Of a stretch of 64,000 bases of DNA, positions 5,636 through 60,599 are shown in pieces; position 1 is the stretch's first letter; the number at the start of each line of letters is the position of its first letter. Both the position numbers and the translations under genes were made by a program. The DNA is taken from the NCBI RefSeq assembly GCF_025024155.1, contig NW_026251709.1, positions 992,001-1,056,000 of the forward strand, written 5' to 3'. A model generated the notes under the pieces. The model saw only the letters and a list, made by a program, of their open reading frames with translations, was not told the origin of the DNA and did no database searches. This DNA comes from Gamsiella multidivaricata. Taxonomy: Eukaryota; Mortierellomycota; Mortierellomycetes; Mortierellales; Mortierellaceae.

Positions 5636-6492
5636 ATGCCAACTGCCAAGGTCATTCTCGAAAATGTCTTTGGCATGCTGGGTATCATCTTCTGGAGCTT
5701 CCAGCTATTGCCCCAGATCATAGACAACTATAAGGCCAAGACGACCAAGGGACTTTCGCCCATCATGTTCCTGCTCTGGACACTGGCCGCACTCGGTTTT
5801 GGATCATACAGCATTGTCGAGGATCTGTCTGTCCCTATCATTATCCAGCCCCATGTCTTTGGTCTGTTCTCGACCATCTGCTTTTTGCAGTGCTTGTATT
5901 ATGACCGAAAAGCACGCTGGTCGATGAACCATACCATCCTGATTAGTTTTCTGTTGCTTATTTCTCTGGCTGGCATGGAGGTCGGGGCGTACTATGGCAC
6001 ACGAGTAAGTCATCTGCCGCCTCTGTCACTTGCTCTTCGTCCTTTGACAAGTGCAGCTAATTCATCTACTGACTGTCCTCATTGCAGTAGAGTGAATGAG
6101 GTACGAATGAGGTATTGAGATCAACGACTCCTAACAACTCTCTCCGTACCATGTCCTAGGCGGGCCTGCGGCATAGCGTTCCTGGGACGATCCACGCCGC
6201 CGGAATTATCCCTGTGGTCCTACTCGGTTTGGGATTCCTTCCCCAATATGTTAATTTTTTGCAACACCACACCGTCCAAGGCGTGAGCATGGTCTTTATT
6301 TCCGCCGATGCCGCTGGCTCGGTCTTCTCGCTTATCAGTCTGGCCTTTCGTGAGGCCTTCGATCTGTTGGCAGCCCTGAACTATGTGATCGTCCTCGTCT
6401 GCGATCTCATAGTCATTGGATTCTACATTTACTACAACAGATTCAAAGGGCCAACACAAACCCCTACGGACGATGGCGAGCAGCGAACTTGA
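5636..6492 (+). CDS. PQ-loop repeat membrane protein
   Basis: Exons 5636-6004 and 6160-6492 (donor GTAAGT, acceptor TAG, phase 0) give 233 residues. The protein is almost entirely hydrophobic, with about seven membrane segments. It has two PQ motifs, near residues 26-27 (FQLLPQIIDNY) and 151-152 (GFLPQYVNF), each in the usual loop after a helix. PQ-loop proteins include lysosomal or vacuolar amino-acid exporters (cystinosin, Ypq/PQLC2 types) and other small transporters; the substrate cannot be read from sequence. The length is short compared with Ypq proteins and fits the smaller fungal members. The hydrophilic C-tail is short. Confidence 0.9.
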
Positions 6493-6679
6493 ATCCATAT
6501 GCACTACAACGCACTCTATTGTCTGTCGTTGCGGACACTCTCCACTCGTCCTTGTACTTGTATTCACACTGAACAAAATTACATATTACTAGACCATACC
6601 ACTAGACTATATCACTAGACTATACCACTGTCGCAAGTTCTTGGGTTTAAAGGGTATATTTAAAGAAGAGTCAAATGCT

Positions 6680-8901
6680 CTATGTATGTATTATATTGTA
6701 TTGTACATTTGCCGCAGTCCAGATGTTAAGGCGCGGATCCTGAGAGTGGGCCTGAAAAGAAGGACAGGGACGACAGTGCCTAAGCAGTTAAGTGCGCGGG
6801 ACAGATCGAGAAGAGAAAAACAAAATAGTGAGCGAAAGATGTCTTCTAGGCTCGAGCAGAACCATTCAAAGCGATATGAAGGGTCATATGAGCACATACC
6901 TCAGCAAACTTGGCGACGAAGCCTGGCTCCTGATCGCTTCCTGAGTCTCCAAATTCAGAGTGGAGCTCTGCTGGGTCCCAATGCTCGTCCACTTTACGGT
7001 CATCAAAATCGCGATCGCTGCCAGAGTCCAGCATATCCAGGTCCGCGTCCGTGTAGAGCGACTTTTTCCCACGGCTTCTTGAGCAATGAGCATCACCTCC
7101 GTCGTCCGCACGGGCTTTTGCATCATCCATGGAATGTGGAGCATACTTATGTCCTTGGATGGGTCCTAAACCTCGGCGTACTTCTGATGTCGATGTTGAT
7201 GTCGATACCGTGGCCGTTGTTGTTCGTGCATCGTGATGGGTGTGGTGTGCGTGTATATGCCTCGGGTGCGAGGTTCCAGCGTGGTCTCGACTAGAGCGCC
7301 TACCGTGTGATTCTTTTTTAGAAGAATGTCTGTGTCGCCGCTTAGCAGACGATCCTTGCTGCTGATCCTGGTTGTAGCGCCGCTCCAGTTCACCAAATAT
7401 GTTGCCACGTACTCCAGGTAGATGAAAGTGGTGATGCAGATGCTGCTCAGTCGGAGGCGCTACAGGGGTCGTCATGTATGGCGGAGGCGACCCTGACAAT
7501 TCACCTGAAAGGTCCTTTGACTGCTGAAGACCAACATCGAGCGTGGCCAAGGCATTGAATGTGCTCTTTGATACCGCAATGTCGGAAGGCGAATCATCTG
7601 AGAAGCCCTGGCCACAACAATCAAACGCATGGCCTTGCTCGTAATCCTCGACTTGTGAACGCAAATTGATCACTTCGTTCCTGGCATCTTGCAAGAGGTC
7701 GCGGTACTCACCTAGTTCTGTCCGCAGCGTCGAATTAGCAGTAGCGAGTTCTTTGATTAGGGAGACGAGTTGGTTTTGGGCCACCAGTGGTGGGTCCGTG
7801 ATGACTGAGTGGTACGGGGGCGAGGAGGAAGGAGATGTCTGGTATATGTTGATGGGTGTCGATCCCTGTGATGCCTTCTCCTGCTGAATTGCCTGACCGA
7901 GACTTCCTTGGGGTGGTGAACACAACCGATCTGTTGTTTCCTTGAGCCATGCAAGAGCCTCTCTGCTCTCCCTGACGAGGTCCAGTTCCTGCTGCTGTCT
8001 TTTCAGGAGTTCATGGCGCTTGCCGATGGCCTCGTATTTTGTCTGCATGATAAAGAGCTTTTGTTGTAGAGATCGCTCTGAGCGCTGGACCTCATGGAGC
8101 TCATCCTGCAGTGCCTCGATTTGAAGACGTCCAGCATCCTCGCGCTCCTGAAGGGCTTCCCGCTTGATTCTTTCGACGCGAAGCAAATCTGAGTCTTTTT
8201 GACCGTCATTGATCTCCTTGGTCAGATTGAACAGCTGCTGTTCCGTGTGCTCGAGCTGGCTAGAGACGAGCAAGAGGCGCTTCGCTGTCCTGGCTTGATC
8301 ACTGACAGCGACCATCCTTGACTCTTCCAGCTCCTGATTTGCTTTGGCGAGGCCCCGACTGGTCTTGTTCACCTTTTCGATCTCCATCATGGCGACGCGC
8401 AGCTAGCAAAAAGGAAGTGACCCACATTGGCGATAAGTATTTGTGTCTCCAATATACGACTGACAGAGGAAACATGCAGCAGAGAAGCAATCGCTCATCC
8501 TGCATAGCGTTCCCTAATTCGATGCAGCTTTTAACGAGGCATTTCCTCACGCCGTGCTAAATACCTCACGCTGTAGCTCGTTGGTCAACATTCGGTGATG
8601 GTCTTGATCAATTGGTACTTGCTCTAGATGACAAGATAGAGTAAAGTCAGCAGCACGGACTATTCAATCAGCTTTCTCATTTGCCAATTGTATCTGAATC
8701 CGACTGGTTCACGAAGAAGAGAGATTGCGCGAAATGGAGCAACTGAAACATACCGTCGTCCAGAGAATATTGCAGCAGGGCGTGGGGGTTGGCATGGCGC
8801 CTAGAGACAATCCAGTGGGGACACCTGCATGCCTGCAGGCAGTAGCATCCTTGAATAGCAGGGTCTGTGTCTCGGTCGGGGTCCAGAGAGTGCGAATCCA
8901 T
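6680..8901 (-). CDS. coiled-coil protein, function unknown
   Basis: Main exon 6900-8402 (501 codons). Phase-consistent upstream exons are 8565-8623 and 8754-8901, and a possible 3' exon is 6680-6751; together they give about 593 residues. The exon 2 to exon 3 junction continues a heptad pattern, which supports it; the first and last exons are weaker. Roughly residues 60-250 and 300-360 are long coiled coil rich in Leu, Glu, Gln and Arg. The C-terminal half is disordered, with a His/Ser/Arg-rich tract and an acidic tail. I do not recognise a named family. The shape fits a cytoskeletal or vesicle-tethering scaffold, which is only inference. Confidence 0.65.
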
Positions 8902-23324: not shown

Positions 23325-26318
23325 ATGGGCAAGTTGACGTCTCTTTTCTCCTCTTCATGTGCAGGCACGCCTCTCCTGAAAAGGAGGAGGAGGACTCCTT
23401 AAACTGTGGCAATTAACCCGTCTGTTGTTGTTTGTGGTTCATAATCCTTGCTATCTTGTCTTCTTTACACAGCCCCGATTATAGCAGGCGTTGCGGCAGC
23501 ATTGGCCACAGGATACTATGTCAACGATAAGTACCAGCTCACAAAGGACCTAACCTTTGTCAGGGGCGCATTCAGAGCACGCAAAAAGTACTTGATTCTC
23601 TTGCCACCTTCTTTCAATGAACTGTGTGGTGAGAAACGAGATTTCTGGGAATATACTCTAACGAATTTCCTCTTCCGCGAACTCCCAGATATGAAGCCTG
23701 CATCAAGGATCAGGACTGTAGTCTTTACAACCGCTTTGAGGAGCAGTGTCAAATCAGACCCTTTGCAATCGCGCTGGCCTTCGAGGGTGCCTCCTACACC
23801 TGGCGCGACCTGGAACTGGGTATGTCTCGAGATCTGCCCGCTATTCCTGCTTCTTTGCCCGGCTCATATCACCCTATACTGATTCAAGTATTGGCCATCT
23901 CTCCCACACCTATCAATAACCATAGCCTCAAACCGAATGGTACGCGCCCCTCACAGAAAACAAAGAATAGCGCACTGCATAGCGATGCTCAACGGTGCTA
24001 TCCAGAGTATCTCTCATCCGGTCACGTTTCCTCACATCGACTTGCGATTCTTTTTCTCTACGTAGGCTCATTGGTTCGTATCCAAGGGCGTCCAGAGCAG
24101 CGACCGCGTTGCGATGATGATGCACAATTCACCCTTGTTCCTGATCGTCTGGCTGGCCCTGCTCAAGATGGCGGCTATCCCAGCCTTCATCAACAATCAA
24201 ATCACCGGTCCTGTCTTGCTGCATTCACTCAAGGTCACTTCCGCTAACCTCCTTGTCTTTGACTATGAGCTCGCACCTGTGGTGGAAGAGTGCCTGGAGG
24301 ATATCAAAGGGCTTGGATACAATGTCTATACTGTCACGCCCAAACAGCACATCCTTGGTCAATTTTACGGCCATCTGTCAGAAGCCGCTCGTCAGAAAAT
24401 CGAGATTCCCACCTTTTTTGATTATGCCGAGTGGGGGCATTTGAGTACTGAAGGTTTCCCTAAGAGTGTCCGCAAGCACGTCGAAATGAAGGATCCCGCG
24501 GCCCTGATTTTCACCAGTGGAACCACTGGCTTTCCCAAAGCAGCCGTCATGGATCACGGACGATGCACCGGTATGTCTTTGAATCGATCTGCAGAGCCTA
24601 TACAGCGATCTGCATTAAAAATAGAAGCACTATGCTTACCATAATATCTAATACCTGCCTCACCTCAATTAGTAGCCAGCGTCTCCTGGTCAATGTTCGG
24701 CGAGATCACAGCAGACAGCAAGGTCTATGTCACTCTTCCACTTTACCACTCTGCTGGATGTAAGTGTTCTGTTTAGGAGAATCGTGAGCAAAGCTTACAC
24801 GCACCGTAGTCCAGCGCATCTGATCTGCTTCCTTGTAACATTTTAGCGATCGTGGGTGTGGGCCAGAGCTGGACCTCGGGTTCCACTATAGTGTTGGCGC
24901 GAAAGTTCTCTGTCACCAACTTTTGGAAGGACTGCATCGCGTACGACGTGACCCACTTTCAGGTAATCATCTCCGCATTGCTCAGCATGGGGCGACAGCA
25001 CTTGGCCATGAATCAAGCCAAAGGCACTGATAATACATCGCTTGAATAACATCATAGTACATTGGAGAGCTCTGTCGTTATTTATTAAACGCTCCAGAGA
25101 GTCCTTTGGACAAGAAACATAAGGTCAGACTGGCTTTCGGCAACGGAATGCGTCCGGATATCTGGGCAAAGTTTCAGGAGCGCTTCAGCATTCCCACGGT
25201 ATTTGAGTATTATACCATGAGCGAAGGTAATGATCTGATTCGATATCCGATTGCCATCCCTTCGATTACTTTGCTCACTCTGGAGTGAAGGATATAAAGT
25301 CTCTCCGTTTTAACGCGGATGTGTTAACGATACACTACTCTTACTTTGTTCTCATCTTTGCTTTGCTGCAGGTACCGGTGCGCTGTTCAACATTGCAAAG
25401 AACAAGCGAGATCAAGGTGCTGTCGGGTTCAGAGGGCCAATCGTCAGGTACCAAGTAATTTTGTTAGATGCAAGTCTATGGGAACTATTCCGTAATTAAC
25501 CACAGATTGCGCTACACCCTATTTTTTTTATTGCTGCCGTTAATGCAATAAGGACGCTGGCACCTGGATTCAAATTGGTCAAAGTGGACACCGACACGGA
25601 GGAGCTCATCCGTGACAAGAAGACGGGCTTCTGCATCGAGTGTGGACCCGACGAGATTGGGGAGCTGCTGACGCTCGCCGACAACAAAACACCTGGAACG
25701 CGTTTTGTTGGGTATTTCAACCAACCAAAGATGTCACAGGCTAAGCTGGTTCACGATGCCTTGGCCAAAGGCGACATTTATATGCGCACTGGCGATCTCC
25801 TCTATAGAACCAAGGATCAGTACTGGTACTTTGCGGACCGCGCTGGCGATACATACCGCTGGAAGGGCGAAAACGTCTCGACAGCAGAAATTGCAGATTC
25901 GATGGGCCGGGTCGACGGCCTCACTTCGTGCACGGTCTATGGTGTTTCTGTCCCTGGTCAAGATGGGCGCGCAGGAATGGCGGCATTAGTCTTGAAGGAC
26001 TCTATCATTCAGCCTGCGAGCGATGGTCGAACAACCGCGCTAGTAAACGAAGACGCACTCGCAGATTTTGTGCAGCGAATGGGCGACCATGTAGCTAAGA
26101 GTCTGCCTCCCTACGCCGTGCCTCGATTCCTCCGCATCTGTGAGCACGAATTGGAAACGACTGGCACATTCAAGAACAAGAAAGTGGAGCTTAGGAAGGA
26201 AGGCTTCGACCTACATCAAGTCAAGGACCGCATGTACTGGTGGACACCGCAGGGCTGCTATAAGCCATTCGGTCATCCTGAGAACGGAATGATCGTCGCT
26301 GGACGCGCTCGACTTTAA
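23325..26318 (+). CDS. FAT1: very long-chain acyl-CoA synthetase (FATP family)
   Basis: Ten exons: 23325-23358, 23473-23623, 23689-23819, 23926-23939, 24066-24570, 24673-24759, 24847-24962, 25058-25226, about 25372-25447 and 25553-26318; close to 682 residues. Exon 4 is only 14 nt, yet it restores the conserved SNRxAHWF region. The AMP-binding signature LIFTSGTTGFPKAAV and the FATP/VLACS motif YRWKGENVSTAEIAD are both present, with VTLPLYHSAG between them. An N-terminal hydrophobic segment (residues about 10-30) suggests a membrane anchor. Family role: activate long and very-long-chain fatty acids to CoA esters and couple this to import, at ER, peroxisome or lipid droplets. The exon 2 donor (GTGTGG), the exon 1 donor (GTGCAG) and the exact start of exon 9 are the least certain points. 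Confidence 0.92.
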
Positions 26319-27020: not shown

Positions 27021-27163
27021 AAGATGCATTTATTCCGTTTTGCAATCGGTATAAGCTGCTACTTATACGAAAATGAATAATACAGGCTGTATCCCTTAGA
27101 CCGTCTCAGCTGGAAAGAGAGACAACCACCTAGGATAAATATTAACTGATACGACCAGTACAG

Positions 27164-30100
27164 TTATTCTTGCTGGGGTCGGCGAAGGGGCTCTGGGCAA
27201 GACAGGCTACTGATCCATTCGAGGCCAATATTAGCTAAATTCTGAGCCCCACGCAGTCCCTGTCTAGCCATCTCTGGCACCCATCCTCAAAACAGACGAA
27301 CGCCCGATTCGATGGCTTTGCCATTCTTCGGTCCTTGTTTTGTCGTACACAGCTTGGGCGTTTCGATGACGTGAGATACTCATCCGAACAAACGGCGGTG
27401 TACCCGAGGCTGTTTGCCTATGTAGTGCAATGACATGCGGAAACATGGCATCAGTATCGATACTAGACTGAAAACAAGCAAATCGCAACGAATATCTACA
27501 TACCTTGTGGAAATAATACCCCTTGAAGCTCTCGTGTAGCGATGCCAGCCTGGTATGAGTGTTGAACTTTCCTGGCTCGTATACAAACATTGCTGGTCTC
27601 GTTGGCCCAGTATGCATCCCGCCTTGTGAGTCTACAGTTCGCAATGCCCCATGCACGGCATGATCCTTCTCAGCCCGGTTCGCCTTTTTGAGCTCCCACA
27701 GCTTTTTTTTCATTGAACGGGATCCGTAAAAATCGCGAAGTGGTTGTAGGACATAGCTGAACTGTCGGAGGCCATGCCGGTGTTCTTCCATGCTTACGAA
27801 CGACGACGACGGTAGCGAGGCTTCTAATTCGGATATGCTAGGCGTCTCGCATGTGTGCCCGCTTAATCTTGTATCGTCTTTGATTGTGACAGTGGTCCGT
27901 TCGCGTTTTTTGGCCTCCAGCGCGGCTCTGAGTGACAAGTTGGGACTGTAGAGAGCGGAGTGTCTGATAGGCAGGTTCGTGACTTGGTTCGGTTTTCGGA
28001 GGTCCAGCGTACAAAATGATGCTGAAATTACTTCGCCGGGGTCCACTCCCACCCCCACAACATTCTGGAGGTCTTGATCGAAAGCCTTTGCGAGAGACCC
28101 TTTGTTAGGAAATCGCGATGTAATCTCCGGGATCCGCGCCTTAAATTTGGATGACTGCCAACATCGTCGTATGTCAAATGCCATTAGGTGGAGCTGGACT
28201 CCGTCTGTTCTCATCATATTGCTGATGGCATAGTGTTCCTTGACGCTGTCATTACTTGGGAGGTCGGGGGGCACGGGGGGCTCCGTGCCTTCGGCAGCTG
28301 CTTGCTTCCTAGCCTTGTGATTTGCAAAGACCCTCTTCATGTGCCCATCGAGTGCAGCTTGGCCGTATGTGTTTGGATGGTCCTTCAGCAATCGGCTCAT
28401 GGTCGTTGTTTTCTTGCCATATGAAGTCTGGTTCTTGAGGGGATCCGCCTTGATCTCGACCTTGTCTCCAATAAACAGTAGTCGGAAAAGCTCCCCATAT
28501 TTCTCTGCTGCAAGTTCGTGGGCCGTCTCGGAAGAGCAGACTTGAGATTCCATGATATGCCGCGTAGGGTGCGTCTTTGAATGTGGACTACCCCAAAGAA
28601 GTGAAAGAATGGCAGCCTCAGAGCACAAGATGAAAGAGTCTCCCAACTTCGACACTGGACAGAAAATAGGATGCAACTCCGACGGCACACGGAGAAAGTA
28701 CCTCCACCAAGTTTGGATGTGCCCCTTCTTAAATGACACCTTGTCTTTCTGTTTATCGCCGTCGGAGCTCTCGTCATCCTCAACTGGAGGTATATCATCC
28801 GTGAAGAAACGAGCACGCTTCAGCTAATAGAAACAAGAAATAAACGTAAGTTCACAGTGGAAAAGCAAATCGACGCGAGATATATCTTGTTCCGGACAGC
28901 GGAAATGTTACCTTGTTCACAATGAGCTTGGGCAGTCTCTGGAAATGCTCCCGAACCGCGGTCCGGACCTCCACCGCCAGTTCCGCCTGGATGACACTCA
29001 GGGGTATATCTTGGCAGTCCTTTGTCGATGCGCAATCTGCAAGAACGCTCAGGAAATCGTCATAAATCGAGCGCGCAGTTGTTTTCGCCTGAATTGCCGC
29101 CGGGTCTTTAGGTGGTCTTCCGCGGGGCGCTACTGGACCATTCAGAATCAAAGAGATCAGATTTCTGATGATAGTTTCTCCATGTTCCTTGTGCAGAATG
29201 AGATCAAGTGGGTCCGCGTTCTTGTCCTCCTTGTGCTGGACTTCCGGAGTACTCGCTTGATTGACATCAATGTCCATATTATGTTCTGGTGCCGGGCGCG
29301 CTTGATCTGAGTTAGATATGGTGGCAGTGCTGACCTCCTTGTAGAGAAAGAGTTCAAGCGCTTTAAACACGATGATACGAGTTTGGCTCATGATGCGGAC
29401 CGCCTCGCTGATGCGTTCCGCGACGATCTTGGTCTGGACTACGTTCAGCTTCGTCGCGCGATGCAGACATCCTGTGATCGACCCTGCAGTCATTGTGAGA
29501 GCCTTGAAAGCCTCCCCGAACAGGCGCTTAGTCAGGTTAGCTCCAGCTCGCCTCTCCGCTTTTTCACCATTCTCCCCGTCCTCCTTGGACATCGTCTTGG
29601 TTTCACTCGCAGCCTTAGGATTGTCATCCATGCTTCCGTCCTTCTTCTTCCGCGGGCGCGGTTCCTCGATGGACATCTTTTCCAATGCGATCTTGCCGAC
29701 CGGGCATGACTGGCTGACGTCCATGACAACGTGAGGGGAATAACGAGGGTTGGCATATCCGTTCCTGCTTTTGTACCTAAGGGACAATCCCAAAAATTAA
29801 AAAAAAAAAAAAAAAAAAAAAAATATCAATAAGATGATTGTATCAAAGCGACAAAGCTGTAAAAGGTCGTAATGAATTTGAACCCGCTAACAAAGTCATA
29901 CGACAATCATACCTGCTTCGTCTCCATTTCGCCTTCCGGACTTTCTTACGTCTTGCTTTGCCTTTGGGACGTCGCTTTCTCCGTTGCTGGGCGTTCCCTT
30001 TCTCGTGTCTGCGGCGACGGCGTCGGGCCTGAAGAATCGTCTGCAGGCTGTGTTGGACAAGGGAAGAAAACGCCAAGCCTGCAGAAGTATCGCTGGCGAG

Positions 30101-31630
30101 TGTGTCGGCTGGAGGATTTGTCCGCAAGGTTCGAGTCATATTTCTCCTTTGCAGCTTGCACTTCTCGAGCTTCTGGAGTATGCCCAGTATTCTCTCGTGG
30201 GTCGTGCACGATGGCGTAGCAGAGTCAAGATAGTCCTCACGTACTTGAACAAAAGCCAAAATGGCGTGGGTGTAGTCGTCCACACTCTTGTTTTGTCCTC
30301 CTCTCGCCCGTTGCAAATACTCTTGGATTAGCTCCTTGATAATCTCAGCCCCAGTCGTCTTGGATCCTGGCGCGTCCATTGTTGATCCATCGCCTGCTCT
30401 GGTCTCGGTCCTCATCTCTCGGATGATCTTGATATTTCTTTGGAAGCCGTGCCACGGGAGTGCCTTGGAGTAGTCGTTCCCAGTAATGATTGATGCCAGC
30501 AACAGCTCACGGTCGCATGCGAGGTCCAGAGACCCGAGCAGGTCAGCCTTCTTGTACGTGGTAAGCTCTCGGTACTTTCCGACGGGTATAGTGATTTCTC
30601 TAACACCTTGATATACCATCATATCATTGTCGGCGGTAATGATTGCGAGGTCGTCTTCGTTGTTATCAGCTTGATACAACTCGGCAATGTGCGTGTCTGC
30701 TTGGAAGGGACATTCGCAGGTGTGCCACTCCAAGGTCTCCAGCACATTTCTTATGTCTGCCAGCGCTGCCTTGGATGTCTTGTACGCGTTTCGACATTGC
30801 TTGTACAGGGGACCCAAAGAGCCGCTGTTTTTTCCTATGGCATTGTCAGCTCGCTCCTCCAGAGTCTTGATCCGGTTGCTGAGGGATATGGCCCGATTTT
30901 GTCGCTCCTGGGACTTTTGTATCGAGGCCTTTCCGTCAAAGTGTAGAACCGTGGTTGATTTGCTAAAGTGCTTTGACATGATTTTGTTGAGATCGTGCAC
31001 TATATGGCCGTAATTCTGTGACTAGAGATGAGGCAGGATCGAGGGATGAAACAACAGAACATGTGTCAGCACTTGGTTGCTATGCTGCGTAAGCTAATAC
31101 GAAACCATTGGCACATTTAATTACCTGCTCTGTTATTCCAGGTCGGTCTGGTGTCAATCGTTCGTTAGGGCCAATGAACAGTGCAGGATGTTGCGCCCCG
31201 GCAGCCTGCACCTCGCTCGCATAACTAGGGCATGCCTTTCCTCGCTTGAATGGAGCCTCGGAGGAACTCAGGGCGCGCTTCTTGATGTTGCTTCTCCTGC
31301 TAGTGCTGGCGTCTGCAACAGAAGGCGCGTCTTGCGCTGCTGAGGCTGTGGAGACTGCGGGGGCTGTGGGAACTGCGGGGGCTGTGGGCACTGCGAGAAA
31401 AGTTGCCGTTGCTGTTAGGATAGAAGCCGCTGATGCGCTGGTAGTTGTCGTAACCGTTGCCTCAGCTCTCGCTTCCTTGGCGACTCTGTTACACGTCGCT
31501 TTGAAGGTCCTTGTTTGCAAGAATCCAAGTACAGACTTAGGACACCGACATGAACTTTCTTGCTCTGCAGATCATAAGCTAGCGTTCCTTTGGTGTCTTT
31601 TATAGCTTTGGGTAGCCCAGTGACTCCCAT
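27164..31630 (-). pseudogene. FEN1-like / Fanzor-like (TnpB RuvC) fusion, copy A
   Basis: Exons: 31125-31630, 29913-31021, 28912-29776, 27504-28823, and 27417 down to a stop at 27237-27235 (or 27164 if a lost base in a G-run is allowed). Internal junctions are phase-consistent, so both domains belong to one transcript; about 1330 residues. FEN/XPG-like part: start MGVTGLPKAIKD, HFDGKASIQKSQER, ADTHIAELY, ITADNDMMVY, ITGNDYSKALPWHG. After a Lys/Arg-rich linker comes the Fanzor-like part: RuvC-I GVDPGEVISA near 28040, RuvC-II SDEYLTSSK near 27380, and a zinc-ribbon remnant ending LDRDCVG. Damage: frame change near 31530, frameshift near 27243, Gly where FEN1 has its first catalytic Asp (VHVGVLSLY), Gln at a catalytic Glu, and Arg at the first ribbon Cys. 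Probably inactive. Confidence 0.8.
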
Positions 31631-31654: not shown

Positions 31655-32486
31655 AGTAGACAGTTAATGAGGATCAAATTTGGTACATGTATCCATTTGC
31701 AGAAGCATTCAAGACTCACGTTGAGAATATGCGACAGTGCTTGAGAGCTGATAAGGGAGTAGATGAGGAAAGGAGTGGGGTCAAGGATGTGCGGAATGAT
31801 GTTTCTTTTAAGGCCCCGAAATCTACGTCCAAAATGTGTGTATGTTCATGCACTATGCTATAGAAATTGCAGTGTTCACGCTGATTATCGATTATTTCAT
31901 TCGCATCTAACAGTGATTGATCACTGTTCTCATAAACCACCTAGACTGAGGCGGCGAAAAACTGCTGTAGGATAATGTATTTCGCGTCAGGAGTGGGCCG
32001 ACGAGAAAATAATGGCGCCATAAGCTTCTATACTGTAATGAAGGCAATCATTAAAGACACCTTTCTCCTTATTCAGTCGAGGGGAATATGCTAAATCACA
32101 TGATTTAGCCCAAAAGTAAGGCTGCTCTCTTCAACTGCTTGCGAAAGGGGGGAGTGTGCAATCGATGGAACTACGGTACATGTAGTGTGCAGTAAGCATA
32201 CCAGTTGCTCAATTACAATTGCGCGCTTTCTTTCCCCACAAACAAGTCTCTCCCTTTCTTAATACGCCTTTTCCCTCCCTCTCTTTCCCTCTCTCTTTTC
32301 CTCTCTCTTTCCTTTTCTATTCACCCGCCTTCTCACAACTGCAGATTACAAATGGCCCATCATTCCAGATACATATGCGCCTGTGTATACTAAAAGAACG
32401 TACATAGTAATATATATGGCATGGCACTGACTCTGATGAACATACGACACACAATAAAATTATTTTACCAAACTGTGATCTATCCC
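31655..32486. other. spacer, nothing recognised
   Basis: Contains CT-rich stretches around 32255-32330 and no protein-like frame. It separates FEN-Fanzor copy A from the next gene on the same strand. Confidence 0.5.
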
Positions 32487-34273
32487 TTACTCTGTACTAT
32501 GCAGCTCGCGGAAGAGATCCACGTTTGATTCCACAAGGAACTTGGGAGACTTCTGGTCCCATGTGCGCATGCTTTCGACAATGAACCAGTCCTCTTTTCG
32601 GATGAAATTCCTCGCCACAAGATCTAGCTTGCACCCGATACGTCGCCTGGAAGAAGCATCATATTCAGTTTTTCTATTCTTATTCCTCCGGAGCGTAGAT
32701 TCGATACCAGCCTTTTCGCCATCGACCATTAGAATCCCATTCACATCGTCCAATAGCTCTTTTAGGAGTGGCCATGACGTTCATGCCCAATAAGCCTCCG
32801 AGAGATTGTCTGCAATAAACGGCGAGGGGTCCTTCTTGTAAATCCGAGCCCTGCAACGAAGAGATTCAGAGACAAGACACGATGTTATTCAGAAGCTCAA
32901 AAAAAAAGGAAGTAAGCAAGTATGTCATAATAAAGAGAACAACAAGCGACCTTGCCGCTGATGTAATAACAACAGTAGCGCCAGCTGTCGATAGCCTTAC
33001 CACTTCATGCATGTTGTCATCGCTAGCTCGCAAGTGAACCTGTCATGCTCAGGTAAAGGAATTTTGGAAACATGATCGCCTTCCAACATTGCTCGTCGCA
33101 CCTGCTTCAGATACTCAGTGGTAGTGACTGGCGGATGCGGTAGGGTGAACTTGTTATGAGCTTGCAGCTCACGCCATTCTTTATCTGTAAAGAGTGCTTT
33201 GGTCGACTTGCAGTCAAAGTCAATTGTACATGAGCGGAATCTAGATGAAATCGGTAATTTGTTAGTTTGACGTGCAATACAATGATCTGGTTCTGTAGCA
33301 TGCCAGTATGCTTCATTACTCACGCCACAGGTGCACTTTCCATTAAGCTGGCGTTAAACATCACATCTTCTACTGTACGCCCCGACTGCAGCTTCCAAAA
33401 GCGAGCACGATCAAGACTTTGGAAGCGCTATTTTGAATTGCCATTAGAATAGCGTAAGCAGACACAGTTACTTACATGACAACACGGAATAAAATTCTAA
33501 TCTCACCTGTTGGCGTCGACCAAGCTTTGCCTTGCTACAGGTCGCATGCTGTCCAAGCGGCCATGATGTTGATGGCGATGATAATGATGATGATGCCACC
33601 GGTGATAGTGCTGATGCTGACGCTACCTCCGCCTCATTCAGGCTATCATATAGCAACGCGTCCAGATCGTCATCATTTTTGTCCTTGTCTCCAATGTCTC
33701 GTACTAGCCAAAATTCTTCAGACCGATCATCACCATCATCGCTGTTGACATCCTTAGTTTCTTGGACTTTGCGGGCTCGCTTTGAGGACTTAGTTCGAGA
33801 AGTTGTTGCATCAGTTGTTGTTCCTGATCCCGTCAGATCTGATAGATGAGGGTTTAGCCCAGAGGCTATCACACCCAGCTTGACTTCAGTATGCTTGATG
33901 ACAGCCCCTGTTACAGTAGCAAATGTTCTGTCCACTGTGTCGACGGCATCATTGACATTTCGACGTGCAATGTCCTCAAAGCGCTTAGTTGTAGCCTGAC
34001 GAAAACTGACAAACCAACTATCAAATGATTTAAATTGAAAACAATTCGTTACTTCAGTATATCATAATGCAACCTGTACTCAACTTAGTACCTTGAATAC
34101 ACATAACGCACTTGAACAGCTGCAATCAAATCCATTGCCCATTTCGATAGCTTGTCTGATTTGTTTTCGAGCTTTATGTGATTTGCAGATTTCTTCAGCG
34201 CGTCAGCCAAAGCGCCTTTCTCGTTCATCTTGAATTGTACAGCGAATGCAACCCAAAGATCTGTCCAAGGCAT
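32487..34273 (-). pseudogene. unnamed multi-copy family gene with one nonsense codon
   Basis: Exons 34112-34273, 33507-33995, 33324-33427, 33001-33240 and 32487-32850 splice in phase to 453 codons including the final stop. A TGA at 32783-32781 lies in frame between YWA and TSWPLLKELL, so the product would be cut about 95 residues early. The N-terminal part is helical; the middle is Ser/Asp-rich (SDDGDDRSEEFW, DDDLDALLYD). The C-terminal part (RRRIGCKLDLV, DWFIVESMRTWD, KFLVES) resembles a large unnamed family that I know from Mucoromycota and Mortierella proteomes. Function unknown. An upstream Met may exist beyond 34273; Met 34273 follows a plausible acceptor, so the 5' end is uncertain. Confidence 0.55.
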
Positions 34274-52412: not shown

Positions 52413-55204
52413 TTACATTTTCTGACCACTATTGGGTCGTTGAACGAGAGCTTTCTTGGACTTGTCGAGGTCTTGGTAACCCCATGATCTCTTGAGAACA
52501 TTGAATGAGCCCTTTGCAATATCCTCGATGTCTTTCTACAACAGAGAAATAAAAAAATGTCAATGAGAATAACTTAAAAAAAACTCAAACATAGCTAAAA
52601 TACATACCTTTGCGATCAATAGAGTGGAGAAGGTTGCGATCAGTGAGGCGACCGCGGCAGTCGTGGTTGGGATGGTGAACTTGCCCACTTCATGAAGGAC
52701 ATACATCCCTCGGGTTTCAGCCCGTAATCGCATGTAGTTTCCATTCTCGTAGATGATATGGAAAAGAGGTGCCATTTTAAATCCAGAGTCCAAAAAGGCC
52801 TTGCCATAGCGAACATCACGGAAGAAATCCCAAAGGTTCTTCCACTCGTCGTTCTTGTGAGCTGGACCAGAGAACTCGCCCCAGGCAATTTCTGTTTTGC
52901 CAACAGCGGCCGTAAAGTCGGGTCGGTCGGGCTTCAGTCCTAGTTCCTTTTGCGTTGCTGAGTCTTTGTTCGGGCTATTGGTCAACAATAAAAACATTTC
53001 TTAGAAAGGCAATTCCACCATACGTCAACAAAAGATTTTGCAGCGCATTCTTACAAGTGGCTAGTGACAGTTTTGGATTCAAAAAATGCCTGCATGACTG
53101 GCCCAATATGCTTAACGGTATACTCGTACTCAGAAATCGAACGGTCTTCATCCTTCGGGAGATATTCCAACCTGAGAAAAAAGGATACAAAAACAAAATT
53201 AGCTTGATTTTACAGCACCAATAGCATCATGTGCTTTGTAACATCGAATCCTACAGCGTTTCAAGCATGATACGGATGGGCCTGTGGTCCTTGTTCATAG
53301 GGACAAGAGTCGCCGCCACATCGTCCTTTCGGTCTTGCAAGCAAAGCTAGAAAAAGAGGGAAAAACATTAGTGAGCATCAACAAAATGAGCGTGAAGCAA
53401 ACAATATTGAACGTACCTTAACAGCTTTCATTGCCAAACTATCGTTAAACTCAACAGAATCCCACTCCGCATTTGTGATCTCGCGCGATTTGATGAAAGC
53501 TTGAAGAATTTCATCTGAAAAAACGGATTTCATCCTTTCGGTTGGTCTCGAGGGCACGAATATCCCCATCAAAGATACCACGTCTGCAATTTCCATGATC
53601 TTCAGCTGGCTTTTCACAAGGGCATCCACACTGAGCCGCTGGTACTTCTTGAAGAGGCAAGTTGAGCATGCCTTGCCTTCCTGCGGTGCACAAGTATGCG
53701 TGATCTTCTCGATTTGTGACAGGAGAATCGCTCGTTCATCTGCGTTGATGATTGTTGATTGATCATCTGATGGCGGTGCGGCTAGGACCGTTCCGGGGGA
53801 TCCTGGAAGTATGTCTGACGCGCCAGTCATGATCTGGCTTGAATGAGTAGTGGGGAGTCCATCTGTGGTTGATAATGATCCAGGAACTGAGCTCGAGTCA
53901 GTAACGCGTCCAAGACCTCTGACTGAGATTTTCGATTCTGATGCCAGTCCCGGAACAGCGGCCGAAGTGTTCAAGCCAGCTGCTGATCCAGTAATGGTTG
54001 TCGAGGCTATCAAATCGGTTGCGGCAGTGGTTGAGGAGGTTGAGTCGATAGCAGCTCCAAAATAAAGGGGAGGGGTTCCCAGACGCGACGATGAAGCAGC
54101 AAACGATGGTGGCATTCCTGGGGGAGCGGTTGAAGCATTTGGGAATGGCGGCAATTCGGTACTTGCGCATGAGGGTCCTGCTCTTCCTGCACTCATGCCC
54201 ACCGCTGAATCACCTGCGGTTGACGTTGTGGAGTTCGCGGCTGTTGAGCCTGATGACGTTGAAGTTAAGGGCGAAGCTGACGAGTTACGGGGAGCTTTAG
54301 GCGGTGCCTCCTCCAGTTCGACCCAGGGATCGCGTGGATGCTTCTGGCCAGCTAGTAGAGTGGTAACAAAAGGTGCCCAAGAAGTCAATGTATAAGGAAT
54401 GCAAGAGTCTCCGGACCAATCGTTATATGGCAAGTTTGCTTACCTGCGCTGGGGATGCATGTCGAATGTGCAGAGTCTTGGCCGAGCACATGAGAGTCCA
54501 AAAATGAAGCCGGATCTGTGATGCGCGTCGAGGATTCAGTGCCTTCATCAAGGTTATGAGAGGGTAAAGAGAAGGCTGGATTGGGGATATGCGTGGTTGG
54601 ATTGGCGGTCTGCGTGGTTGGACCAAGGACATGCGTGGAAGACGATGAGGCGTGGGCTGGCACCGCTATCAAGGTAATGCAGCATTGGTTAAGCATTGCA
54701 AATTATAGTCCTACGCGAGCAAATCATATGTATCCATACAGTTGTTGACATCGATTGAATATTGGGCATTGGCCCTTCCAATTTGTCTATTGCAATTGTC
54801 CACAGGACTGTACCTGAACTCGAAGAAGATGCAGGGATGTCGCCTGCATCCCGCGCAACATGGAGATACAATCCTCGCACGCTTACTTTGGCACGCGTTG
54901 ACTCAGTTTTCAATAAAAGATTTTCGAACGTCTCCATGAACTTGTCATATCGAACAGATTCACACAAGAATCTTGCGCGCTTCTGAAGTGGTTCCGAGAT
55001 GTCTTTGTGATGAGCGATTATCTTCAGGTTTTCCATGAACACCTCATGGTGTTGGTGAGGAGTTTTGGTCACGTGTCTGTAAGCGAAAAAAATCTCGACC
55101 TCACCCCAGTGTCTAGCATCGTTCTCGCGGAAGAAGGCATGAATGGTGGTGATACGCGGGTCAACAGATCCGAGGCAGCCCTGGAGAAGCCGTGTTGTGC
55201 GCAT
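52413..55204 (-). CDS. unnamed-family protein, intact, about 748 residues
   Basis: Seven exons: 54814-55204, 54444-54665, 53417-54351, 53255-53346, 53055-53171, 52608-52974 and 52413-52535, all in phase and without stops. N-terminal helical region (RITTIHAFFREND, FMENLKIIAHHKDI). Residues about 130-430 form a Ser/Thr/Ala/Pro-rich disordered tract. A cysteine pair sits in KACSTCLFKKYQRL near residue 420. The C-terminal domain has IAWGEFSGP, WDFFRDVRYGKAFLDSG, GNYMRLRAETRGMY, EVGKFTIPTT and SFNVLKRSWGY. I recognise that C-terminal block only as an unnamed multi-copy family of Mortierella/Mucor-type fungi. Met 55204 follows an AAG that could be an acceptor, so a further 5' exon is possible. Confidence 0.75.
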
Positions 55205-55257
55205 CTTGAAAGGATGCGTAATGTCGTGAAGAATGTAAGCAAATGTCAGATAGTACA

Positions 55258-56150
55258 AAAAAAAAAAAAGAAAAAGAATGTGATGGGCGAGTGTAGATGC
55301 TCCATGACCACATTTGCCATGTATGTACCTCTCGGCAGATACCATGCGCAACTGATCACTATTGCGACTGCAGCTCGAGGTGACAGAACCAAGAGTTCGC
55401 GGTTGAGCAAGCTGCACTATCCCCATCGAAAGGAACAGTCTGGCGACCCTCTGCATCGAAACGATTGCGTGTCCTCATGATGAGAAGGCGCAACAGGAAT
55501 CTCAGCAGAGTTCACCCAGACGCGCTGGATGAATGGCAGCCTAGACGGGAGGAGCAAAAAAAAAAGAAAAAGAATGTGATGGGCGAGTGTAGATGCTCCA
55601 TGACCACATTTGCCATGTATGTACCTCTCGGCAGATACCATGCGCAACTGATCACTATTGCGACTGCAGCTCGAGGTGACAGAACCAAGAGTTCGCGGTT
55701 GAGCAAGCTGCACTATCCCCATCGAAAGGAACAGTCTGGCGACCCTCTGCATCGAAACGATTGCGTGTCCTCATGATGAGAAGGCGCAACAGGAATCTCA
55801 GCAGAGTTCACCCAGACGCGCTGGATGAATGGCAGCCTAGACGGGAGGAGCAAAAAAAAAAGAAAAAGAATGTGATGGGCGAGTGTAGATGCTCCATGAC
55901 CACATTTGCCATGTATGTACCTCTCGGCAGATACCATGCGCAACTGATCACTATTGCGACTGCAGCTCGAGGTGACAGAACCAAGAGTTCGCGGTTGAGC
56001 AAGCTGCACTATCCCCATCGAAAGGAACAGTCTGGCGACCCTCTGCATCGAAACGATTGCGTGTCCTCATGATGAGAAGGCGCAACAGGAATCTCAGCAG
56101 AGTTCACCCAGACGCGCTGGATGAATGGCAACCTAGACGGGAGGAACAAA
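55258..56150. repeat. 296-bp tandem triplication
   Basis: Three copies in tandem, period 296 bases (compare GTGATGGGCGAGTGTAG near 55280, 55576 and 55872). Copies are essentially identical except at the distal end of copy 3 (GGCAACCTAGACGGGAGGAACAAAATAAAA). Each unit starts with an A-run followed by GAAAAAGAATG. Confidence 0.95.
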
Positions 56151-56342: not shown

Positions 56343-59300
56343 TCAGGCGTAAACTAGGTCATCGAAGTGAAATAGGTGTGATACTTTTGCTTCTTTTGCT
56401 TTTTTCCCGGGCTTTCTTGGCTTGTTCGATACAGATGGTGTCCTCTTGCGACCACGGGGGAGAGCACCGGTGCTTGTACTGGCGCTGGTCATCGGTGCAC
56501 TGCTGTTGGTGTTGCTGGTGCCAACTGTGGAAGAGTTCATGTTTGGGTCCTCCTGCCAAGGGTACCGTCCATCGGCCGTCCTGGGCTGTAGATAAAGAGG
56601 TCGTTCCTGCTTCTCCAGGTGTCCTCTGACAATCCTGGATATGTTCTCAGCCGCCATCACATCTCTGTGGTGATAATGCTCGCAGTGTGGACAGTACAGC
56701 TCGCGGAGGGTCACCTGTGCCACAAAGTTTTGGCAATTAGGACACTTTTTTGAGGTATAGTACTCGTTCAGTCCCACAACAATATACCCCAATGATCGGG
56801 CCTAGATTTTTTTTAATAGATTGTGTCAACCCTTCTCTACATATGTCAAACATTTGAACACTTTGCAATCATGATAAATAGCATACATACCAATGGGATA
56901 AAGTAGTCCAGGAAGGTTGAATGGAGGGACGAAATGCGCCCTGTGCTCTTGAACTGACCAAGACCAACGCCAATCAAGACTGGATTGGCTGGGTCCCAGG
57001 GATGGCCAATGCTTCCGCCTACGATACCCAACAGACTCGCCGCAACAGCCTGGTATTCTGCTTGATTCGCCCTGTCCCGATCTCAACCATGCTTTTTGAA
57101 TCTGTTGTTGGATCCAGCATAGAACTCCAAGAGTCGTTCTCCTGCTGGACATTTTGGCTCCTCCTCCTCGTCGTCATCCTCTGGGTCTTTCTTCTTTGGT
57201 TCAAGTGCCTCCCAGTACTTGGTGATGCTCGCGCCTGGACCCCGAAGTGGTGGGAGACGAGACTCCATTTCTGAAATCGACTCTGGTTGATTGTCCTCCT
57301 TTGAGTTTTTTTCTTTCTCAAGCCATCTCCTGTAACGAAAAACAGGTTGCATGACTGCCTTTTGATTCACCGCGAGGTTGTAGTGACCGTCGGGATCCTC
57401 AGGTAGATAGGCATACGCACCAACCACGAACGCTTGACCAGCATCGAGTGTCAGGATCTTGATATCGCTTGGGTTGACTCCTGGCCAGAACTGTTCGATG
57501 TCCTCCTCGGTCCGGATAACGTTACGAACCTCTTGGAGGTAGAATCTGTGCCTCCGGCTGTCGACACGATCCTGAGCGGCAGACGATCGTCTGGTAACCT
57601 CCTGTATCGTACAGATTGCAGCTCCTTCAACTTGAAGGTCGACAGGTACAATCCCAATCCATCTGTCATTGGGGATCCCCTGGAGATATACCCGTTCTCG
57701 ACGTAGTCTCTTGGCTGGAACTCAGGTTCCTCAAGCTGTTGCAAGTGCTTCTCGAGTTTCTTGAGGGACCGTAATTTGATTTTGGCTCGGCGACCTGCTC
57801 TCCGTTTCTGGCAACCCTTCAGGCCTTTAGGATCAATATCGGCGACAAAGTTCTTGATCAAGAACCCGGGCTCTTTCTCGCCCATCCAGCTGTGGACCTC
57901 GTCGACAGAAGCATGGAATCCGTCCTCGGTTGCCAGATTTATAAGCCTCTGCATAAGCGCTCCACCTCTCTTGAAGAAGAACCCAGCCAGCTCTCTCTCA
58001 GAGAATCCGACATACGGTTGCCTGGACGACGTCATAGGGATAGTCCTTCTGGGGTTCGGAGACAACTTGTTCAGAGTCAGGTAGTTCTCGATGGCCGAGA
58101 GATCCTCCCGAATCTGGATTTTCGCGTTGGGCTTGTCCAGCTGCCTTTGATTGGCCCTCTTCATCAACTAAAAATTGAAGATTAATAAAAAAAATTAAAC
58201 ACGTTCTAGAGCCAATGAACACCTGTATTGATGACATGCCACTTCAAGTCTTACCATCTTGTGGAGATCGCAGGTTCCAGTCTTGTACATTCGTTTAAGC
58301 CCAGCCTTCAGCTGTCCGACTACGGATCGGACTAGGTCCGTGGGTGTGAACGGCATTCTTTCGTTGATCTCAGCCCGAGTCCGCGGCGGATTGTACAGAT
58401 GAAGTTCTTCAAGACGCTTGATGAACTTGACGACCTCCTGTTTTGTTGGGATGTTGCCAGAGCACAGATAAACAAGAAAGCTTGAAAGGAAATGCCGCTG
58501 CGCTTGGTCACTCCCGCCTGATCCTCCCATATCGGTGTCATCCTCCTCAACATTGCCCTCATCCTCCTCGTCCTCGTCCTCGTCCACAATGCCAGCAATC
58601 TGATTCCCATCCTCGTCTTCCTCCACGGCATCATCGGCGTTGTTCTCGACATCCTTCATGGTGACTCGCGGACATATCAGATCGAGAAAGGTCCGATCCT
58701 GAGCATCCAGTCCCTCAAGTCCTTTTTCGACCAGGCGTTCTAAGTATTCCCAATCAACATCTGGGCCTTGCGCTTGATGCGAGCCGTCTCACTTGCAGCA
58801 TCCAAGAGGACAGACTTCACCTCGTGTTGGAGACTGTTTTGGCTGGGAAGAGCTTGCTCGATATTGGCGGATAGAGTGCCGATGTGCAGAGAGGTCGCCG
58901 GGTGCTGGTAGGCCAACATCCTAGTGATTTTCAACTTGTAGGTTTCCGCTGTTAAAGTTGATAACGATTTTGGCGCAGGCTTTTGCTTTTGCTTTGGCTT
59001 CGGTTTCTCAGTCTTGGGTTCAGGCTCCTTGAAAGGCTTCCAGACGTATTGTTTCATCTTTGCTGGCGGTGATCGCCGTTTCGTTTTGGCCCGATCTTGT
59101 CGTTTAAACGAGTATCGAGGGCGGTTTTTCTTGGGAACTCAGGTTCGTGGCAAAGCAGAGTGACCGACTTCTTCCTGAGGTGAAGACGGACCTTGGGTCG
59201 TGGTTAAAGCAAGCCGCTGTGTTTGTTGGGTGACCGCGGCGAACTGCTGTGATTGCTGCCCAGTAGCTGGCTGGGAAAGGGAAGAAACCTGAGAGTCCGT

Positions 59301-59406
59301 CTGACGATCCCTAATGAACACCGGCGACTCCACAGTCTTGAAATGGCTCGGTGTCTGGGGTGATCTCAGGCGCACGATTTGCACGTTGGTTGAGCTAGTT
59401 AATTTG

Positions 59407-59437
<31 letters not shown>

Positions 59438-60599
59438 GTCAAACAAGTCTCTACAGACAACATGGAACAGAGCAACCACAACAAAAATAAAAATATTACC
59501 TCCTTTGAGGCGGACGACTTTTCTTGGGCTGCTCGTAACGGGAACAAAGGTCTTTGAACCTGTCCCAGAGATCGTTGAAAGACGGGCCTACTGGAGTGGA
59601 GGTTTGGGAGACAAGAGTCTACTTCTTATCGACAAAGACCCGCAAGGATACATGAAAATCCTCGTTTGTTGTGTTCTTGGTCGAGACCTTGACGTGGTTC
59701 AGATAGGCGGCCACAATGGCTTCTGTGTCTGAAGAAGAAACAAAAAAAAAAAAAGAAAAAAAGGTTATTTTTCCTGTTACATTGTCCCAAAACCATAATC
59801 GCTCGTCTTATTTTTTTTTTTTTTGACCTTACTGGGTGCATCGAGGCTCTTGATAATGGAAAAGTTTGTTGCTGGTCCCAGGGAATATATATTGCGGTTG
59901 TAGTCGTTCGACGACACCACTGCAAGGGCCGTGGGTTGAGTTCGAGTCAATCCAAGTACTGGCAAACATCGTTGAGCTTGTACTTCAGGACCAAGTATTT
60001 AGAGATAGGACGCCAAAGAGTCAAGGCAGAATCATAGCCCAACATGTCGCTTTCAGCAGAAATTGCGACATTCTCTGGCCCACAGTCAAACGCGATCGCG
60101 ACATCCGCCTCTGTCTCACAGATGCGTACTGACCAGCCGGCCTGCTGAAGGTACCCGATGAATGTTTGACGATCCTCCAAAGACCAGTAGAAGTGGCCGA
60201 GAGACTTATCCTAACGTCAACGAAGTGGCATTTTCGCGGCTTGCTGCCGTCCTTCATGATGCTTTCGAGCTTGTCGAGGCTTTCAGTACATTTGGAGGCA
60301 GCCTTGCTCCGAGATTCCTTGCGCTGCTTCGCCCTCTCCTGCTTCTCTAGTGCTGGCCCGCCGTCGATGTACAGGACCAGGTTCGTTTTAGAGCCAAACC
60401 CCAAGACATGCTGTTCAAGCCTTGCATGGGCCTTCTCTGCGGTACAATGGGCATAGGCGTTTTTGATGACGCCGTAAAAGGACAACACGTCGACGAGACC
60501 TCTCCGACTGCCCAGGGCAGACACCATCGCCGACTTGTGTATCACCCGAGGAGAATGGCCTTCTCTTCGTAGAAAAGCGAATCCGTCTTTTAGGCCCAT
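56343..60599 (-). pseudogene. FEN1-like / Fanzor-like (TnpB RuvC) fusion, copy B
   Basis: Same layout as copy A. FEN-like part (60599-59620): start MGLKDGFAFLRR, VDVLSFYGV, VLYIDGGPALEKQER, ETEADVAIAFD, SAESDMLGYDS, SSNDYNRNIYSLG. A Gln/Pro-rich and basic linker follows, then helical and acidic segments, then the Fanzor-like core: RuvC-I ILTLDAGQAFVVGAYA near 57445, RuvC-II VVGLNEYYTSKKCPNC near 56750, zinc ribbon CPNC...CPHC, and RuvC-III HHRDVMAAENI. So both sets of catalytic acids look conserved. Damage: frame changes near 60212, 59958, 58745 and 57565, and in-frame stops near 59622, 59125 and 57090. The basic, Ser-rich C-tail ends at 56343. A decayed copy of a formerly complete fusion. 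Confidence 0.8.

Follow-up and report, generated by a model that had tools for sequence, protein, structure and literature searches.

Fanzors are eukaryotic relatives of the CRISPR cutters, programmable nucleases that take a guide RNA from the end of their element and cut DNA with it, and enzymes of the FEN/EXO1 type process 5' flaps and DNA ends. Fanzors and FEN/EXO1/XPG nucleases are each known, and here we describe a variant in which a FEN-type nuclease and a Fanzor are very probably joined in a single protein. The gene was found in a 64,000-nucleotide stretch (the window; G000:C1:992001-1056000) of the 37.5 Mb assembly of the soil fungus Gamsiella multidivaricata (Mortierellaceae). The window gene, termed window copy A, is most probably a transposon-borne gene in decay, functional copies of which specify an N-terminal structure-specific 5' nuclease (FEN/EXO1/XPG superfamily) connected by a basic linker to a Fanzor made up of a middle region, a RuvC domain and a zinc ribbon; its domains, their order, the splice signals, conservation across families and species, dispersal and decay were established computationally. 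The initial annotation of the window knew of no such fusion, and full-text literature searches agreed, returning no description in titles or the beginnings of abstracts, with preprints and most subscription papers outside their coverage.

The genes described here share with Fanzor1 nucleases (SpuFz1, GtFz1 and PpFz1) a RuvC DPG motif (families A and B), a Glu six residues before the zinc-ribbon Cys, a C4 zinc ribbon and a RuvC-III Asp, and both are found within DNA transposons, with the gene near the element 3' end. They differ in having an extra N-terminal nuclease of FEN/EXO1 type (about 350 amino acids) and a long middle region, in the D-L-G or D-A-G motif of some families, and in that their guide RNA is putative. 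PpFz1, itself a fungal Fanzor, carries an extra domain too, but this RuvC-insertion (FRI) domain is, in the available text of the source, a cyclophilin-binding insertion and not an N-terminal nuclease (PMC11423790). The fold, the MG start, the acidic catalytic positions and the NDY motif are all shared with the FEN1/EXO1/XPG (Rad2) 5' nucleases, whereas the proteins described here are fused to a Fanzor, are multicopy in transposons and, in clade A, have Gln in place of one Glu.

Window copy A consists of five minus-strand exons (31630-27164) with GT-AG borders throughout. Exon 1 (31125..31630, ATG at 31630) codes for the FEN N-terminus (MGVTGL and the first catalytic strand) and a low-complexity insert. 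Exon 2 (29913..31015) is an open frame containing the FEN/EXO1/XPG core, with the motifs HFDGK (30943-30929), CPFQADTHIA, ITADNDM (30640-30620) and TGNDY (30484-30470), and the basic linker. Between the FEN and Fanzor parts lies a phase-2 GT-AG intron (29777..29912), its donor after 29913 and acceptor before 29776 exactly as first annotated, and the gene has three more GT-AG introns. Exon 3 (28912..29776) covers the middle region, which may represent the start of the Fanzor RNA/DNA-recognition lobe; it is conserved in the deposited proteins P0015-P0017 and gave no profile match. The pre-RuvC region, RuvC-I (GVDPGE; DPG at 28043-28035) and the part following it are found in exon 4 (27504..28823), and exon 5 (27164..27417) carries the RuvC-II Glu (SDEY, within SDEYLTSSK), the zinc ribbon and RuvC-III (DRD), followed by a frameshift. 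All FEN and RuvC motifs listed in the initial annotation were confirmed, and the zinc-ribbon remnant it mentioned is the exon 5 ribbon, the first Cys of which has become Arg compared with sister copies.

The two halves had been assigned to one gene, an assignment that is supported by a phase-2 junction intron that families A and B have in common, by fused deposited models in two other genera and by repeated co-localisation. For family B, the intron phase comes from depositor model P0010 mapped on locus L031, and the FEN halves of the two families are only about 22–25% identical. Both P0010 and P0014 splice the FEN part to the middle exon. P0015 of Modicella reniformis (1254 amino acids) shows 39% identity over 97% of the spliced window protein, and three proteins of Mortierella sp. 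GBAus27b (P0016, P0017 and P0018) have parts of both halves. These models are incomplete: the zinc exon is absent from all four (P0015-P0018), P0016 is without the FEN N-terminus and P0018 without part of the FEN domain.

The FEN/XPG-like nature of the first half, initially read from motifs, is borne out by matches to curated profiles, by profile searches of the PDB and by a confidently predicted fold of the FEN/EXO1/XPG superfamily. A profile of exon 2 built with its relatives matched Exo1 (5.2e-11) and FEN1 (1.9e-10) in the PDB search, and five FEN-Fanzor loci exceeded the PF00867 cut-off. The separate window exons gave almost no matches to Pfam, and the window FEN exon alone matched only PF02739, below its cut-off.

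Curated profiles and PDB profile searches also identified the second half as RuvC/TnpB-like, in line with the original assignment; the predicted RuvC fold is at most weaker support. The zinc exons of L025 (a family-A sister, 31.7 bits), L031 (35.9), L041 (46.3) and window copy B (53.3) all score above the curated PF07282 cut-off of 26.3 bits. Window copy B is a second FEN-Fanzor copy in the window (56346..60599, minus strand) and belongs to a divergent family, with a D-A-G RuvC-I, a RuvC-II Glu and a C4 zinc ribbon; among the PF07282 matches listed genome-wide, the highest score (53.9 bits) falls in its region. The RuvC-half profile failed to retrieve known Fanzors from the PDB, probably an effect of the zinc exon being lost to gap columns, and a zinc-only profile did retrieve them. 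RuvC-I reads DPG in families A and B, and D-L-G in family C and L043. In all four zinc exons examined (L025 for family A, families B and C, and window copy B), the RuvC-II Glu precedes a C4 zinc ribbon by six residues and an Asp follows within 4–8, given relaxed Cys spacing; CxxC in strict form occurs twice only in family C and window copy B. RuvC-I and RuvC-II are separated by 191 (A), 183 (B) and 243 (C) residues, inside the 125–275 of a published Fanzor motif (PMC3627910) and outside the 120–160 of a published search pattern (PMC10711439), as given in the available parts of these sources. Predicted folding of four 3' ends was not significant (z = 0.10, -1.41, 0.35 and -0.54).

Across the genome there are 109 PF07282 matches with E no greater than 0.001, of which 104 exceed the cut-off; the decayed window copy A is not among them. 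The matches point to a large Fanzor-like complement for a fungal genome of this size. Two window queries gave, when merged, 80 FEN loci, and 49 of these are followed on their own strand by a PF07282 match no more than 6 kb downstream, at a distance of 2.4–3.4 kb in 43 cases. The zinc match is in the wrong order at three of the 80 loci and on the opposite strand at five. With the first query alone, 39 of 56 FEN loci had a downstream zinc match within 8 kb, against 0.65 expected, and five pairs showed other arrangements; the association is far above chance. A search with Pfam XPG_I alone returned nine matches, four strong and five just above the cut-off. The strong ones, none with a zinc match within 20 kb, are apparently host repair genes, and each of the marginal ones has PF07282 about 3 kb downstream. 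Since 60 of the 109 zinc matches had no detected FEN, the genome must also hold Fanzors without a FEN, FENs that escaped detection or truncated copies. Viral contigs and prokaryotic genome contigs, each scanned once with six exact peptide patterns from P0015, yielded no relative, a weak negative in both cases.

Compared with its sisters, window copy A has a 1-base deletion that breaks the frame of exon 1, an Asp to Gly change at the first FEN catalytic position, the zinc-ribbon Cys to Arg change noted above and, after the RuvC-III Asp, a second frameshift. Judged by its reading frames it is decayed, and a full-length protein cannot be made from it. The family-A set comprised ten copies on nine contigs, including the window copy, with further relatives (e.g., on C18 and C39) left out, and aligned pieces are about 88–96% identical to the window copy. 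Exon 1 is open to its end in five of the ten (L024, L025, L027, L028 and L030) and ends in a stop codon in L026; the last exon is missing in three, among them L029 (contig end); and none is intact across all five exons. At the junction intron the donor is GT in all nine copies read (L028 fell outside the comparison), and the acceptor is AG in seven of ten aligned copies, AA in L026, and short of the border base in L028 and L030. The pooled ratios of nonsynonymous to synonymous differences (pN/pS) were 0.39, 0.61 and 0.48 for exons 2, 3 and 4, from pairs that are not independent, and because they lie below 1 they suggest past constraint on both halves.

The 3' non-coding stretch of window copy A (27090..27163, minus strand) runs up to the right end of the element and terminates in TAAGGGATA at 27098-27090, the exact end in six of seven aligned family-A copies (L022 stops earlier). 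The 19-base end pattern has eight exact matches in the genome, none of them more than about 200 bases from a family-A RuvC match, and the reversed control has no match. The 5' border of the repeat carries what is left of a piggyBac-like element's right end (GTACAGAGTAAGGGATA; 32481..32498, minus strand). The element is complete in L026, where it encodes an intact transposase of 623 amino acids (6175-8043, minus strand; DDE_Tnp_1_7, E = 1.6e-59) and has the ends TATCCCTTAC and GTAAGGGATA. Such elements adjoin L021 (a remnant), L025, L026 and L029, and because they also terminate in the last nine bases of family A, this family may be a passenger of the piggyBac-like element. Family B has variable 5' parts and ends in GATACTGTA; no terminal inverted repeat was found in the stretches examined. 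A constant end and variable 5' parts are also reported for Mucor Fanzor elements (PMC3627910): the MCi-2 elements (Bao and Jurka 2013) have a constant 3' part carrying the Fanzor gene, but differ in their ends and target duplications, and the available text mentions no FEN domain. Domestication by the host was rejected, as the copies are dispersed and those examined are mostly broken.

That two neighbouring genes of one transposon have been united solely by gene-prediction software is highly improbable. The fusion is read from gene models and splice signals, and some depositor models cover a single half, but the intron splits a codon in both families, the Fanzor part has no conserved start codon, and homology to deposited proteins from other species runs unbroken through the junction. 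Scarcely more probable is a recombinase that moves the element, its FEN and RuvC parts acting on the ends, in place of an RNA-guided passenger. The lack of a transposase among the seven open reading frames scanned upstream of family B would fit such an enzyme, but family A adjoins an element with the same nine terminal bases and its own transposase, and Fanzors have been described from transposons belonging to several superfamilies (PMC3627910 and PMC10711439, in the parts available).

All seven acidic positions that we take to be catalytic in FEN/EXO1 nucleases are filled, by eye, in families B (L040) and C (P0013, and L041 over two frames); L031 of family B has Asn at one. The set is incomplete in clade A, where P0015, P0016, P0017 and the window copy have Gln at a position that is Glu in families B and C, a change that presumably abolishes FEN activity. 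The clade-A domain could then be a non-cutting module that binds DNA structures and places the Fanzor on branched DNA, but with the other positions acidic in family-A sisters and relatives, and exon 2 at a pN/pS of 0.39, we consider this rather unlikely. If both halves were active, the Fanzor half would take a guide RNA from the element 3' end and cleave the empty site that it matches; at the break, the FEN/Exo1-like half would trim or resect 5' ends or flaps that have been displaced, and repair would then tend towards homology-directed copying of the element and away from simple rejoining. Such coupling of an RNA-guided cut to immediate FEN-type end processing, the simplest role for the combination, is a tentative proposal, and slightly more so is that of a self-sufficient homing system, in which the empty allele is cut by the Fanzor and its ends are at once resected or trimmed by the fused FEN/EXO1 domain, steering repair towards element copying. 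If correct, a natural fusion of cutter and end-processor, retained across several divergent families and in several species, would show evolutionary coupling of targeted cutting to repair outcome, give Fanzors a testable role in transposon retention and provide a lead for genome-editing designs.

The family C copies (L033, L034, L035, L041 and L042) are 97–99% identical where compared (L033 with L034 and L035), which suggests recent spread; several lie near contig ends, and the FEN part of L041 looks frameshifted. A FEN-type match lies just past the right end of the window (G000:C1:1056009-1056581, plus strand), with no zinc match downstream within 8 kb. At 54692-56066 of the window (minus strand) are approximately three tandem repeats in 296-base steps, seen as repeating open reading frame text. 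The open reading frames at 23633-26318 (plus strand) resemble, by eye, an AMP-binding gene of the acyl-CoA synthetase type.
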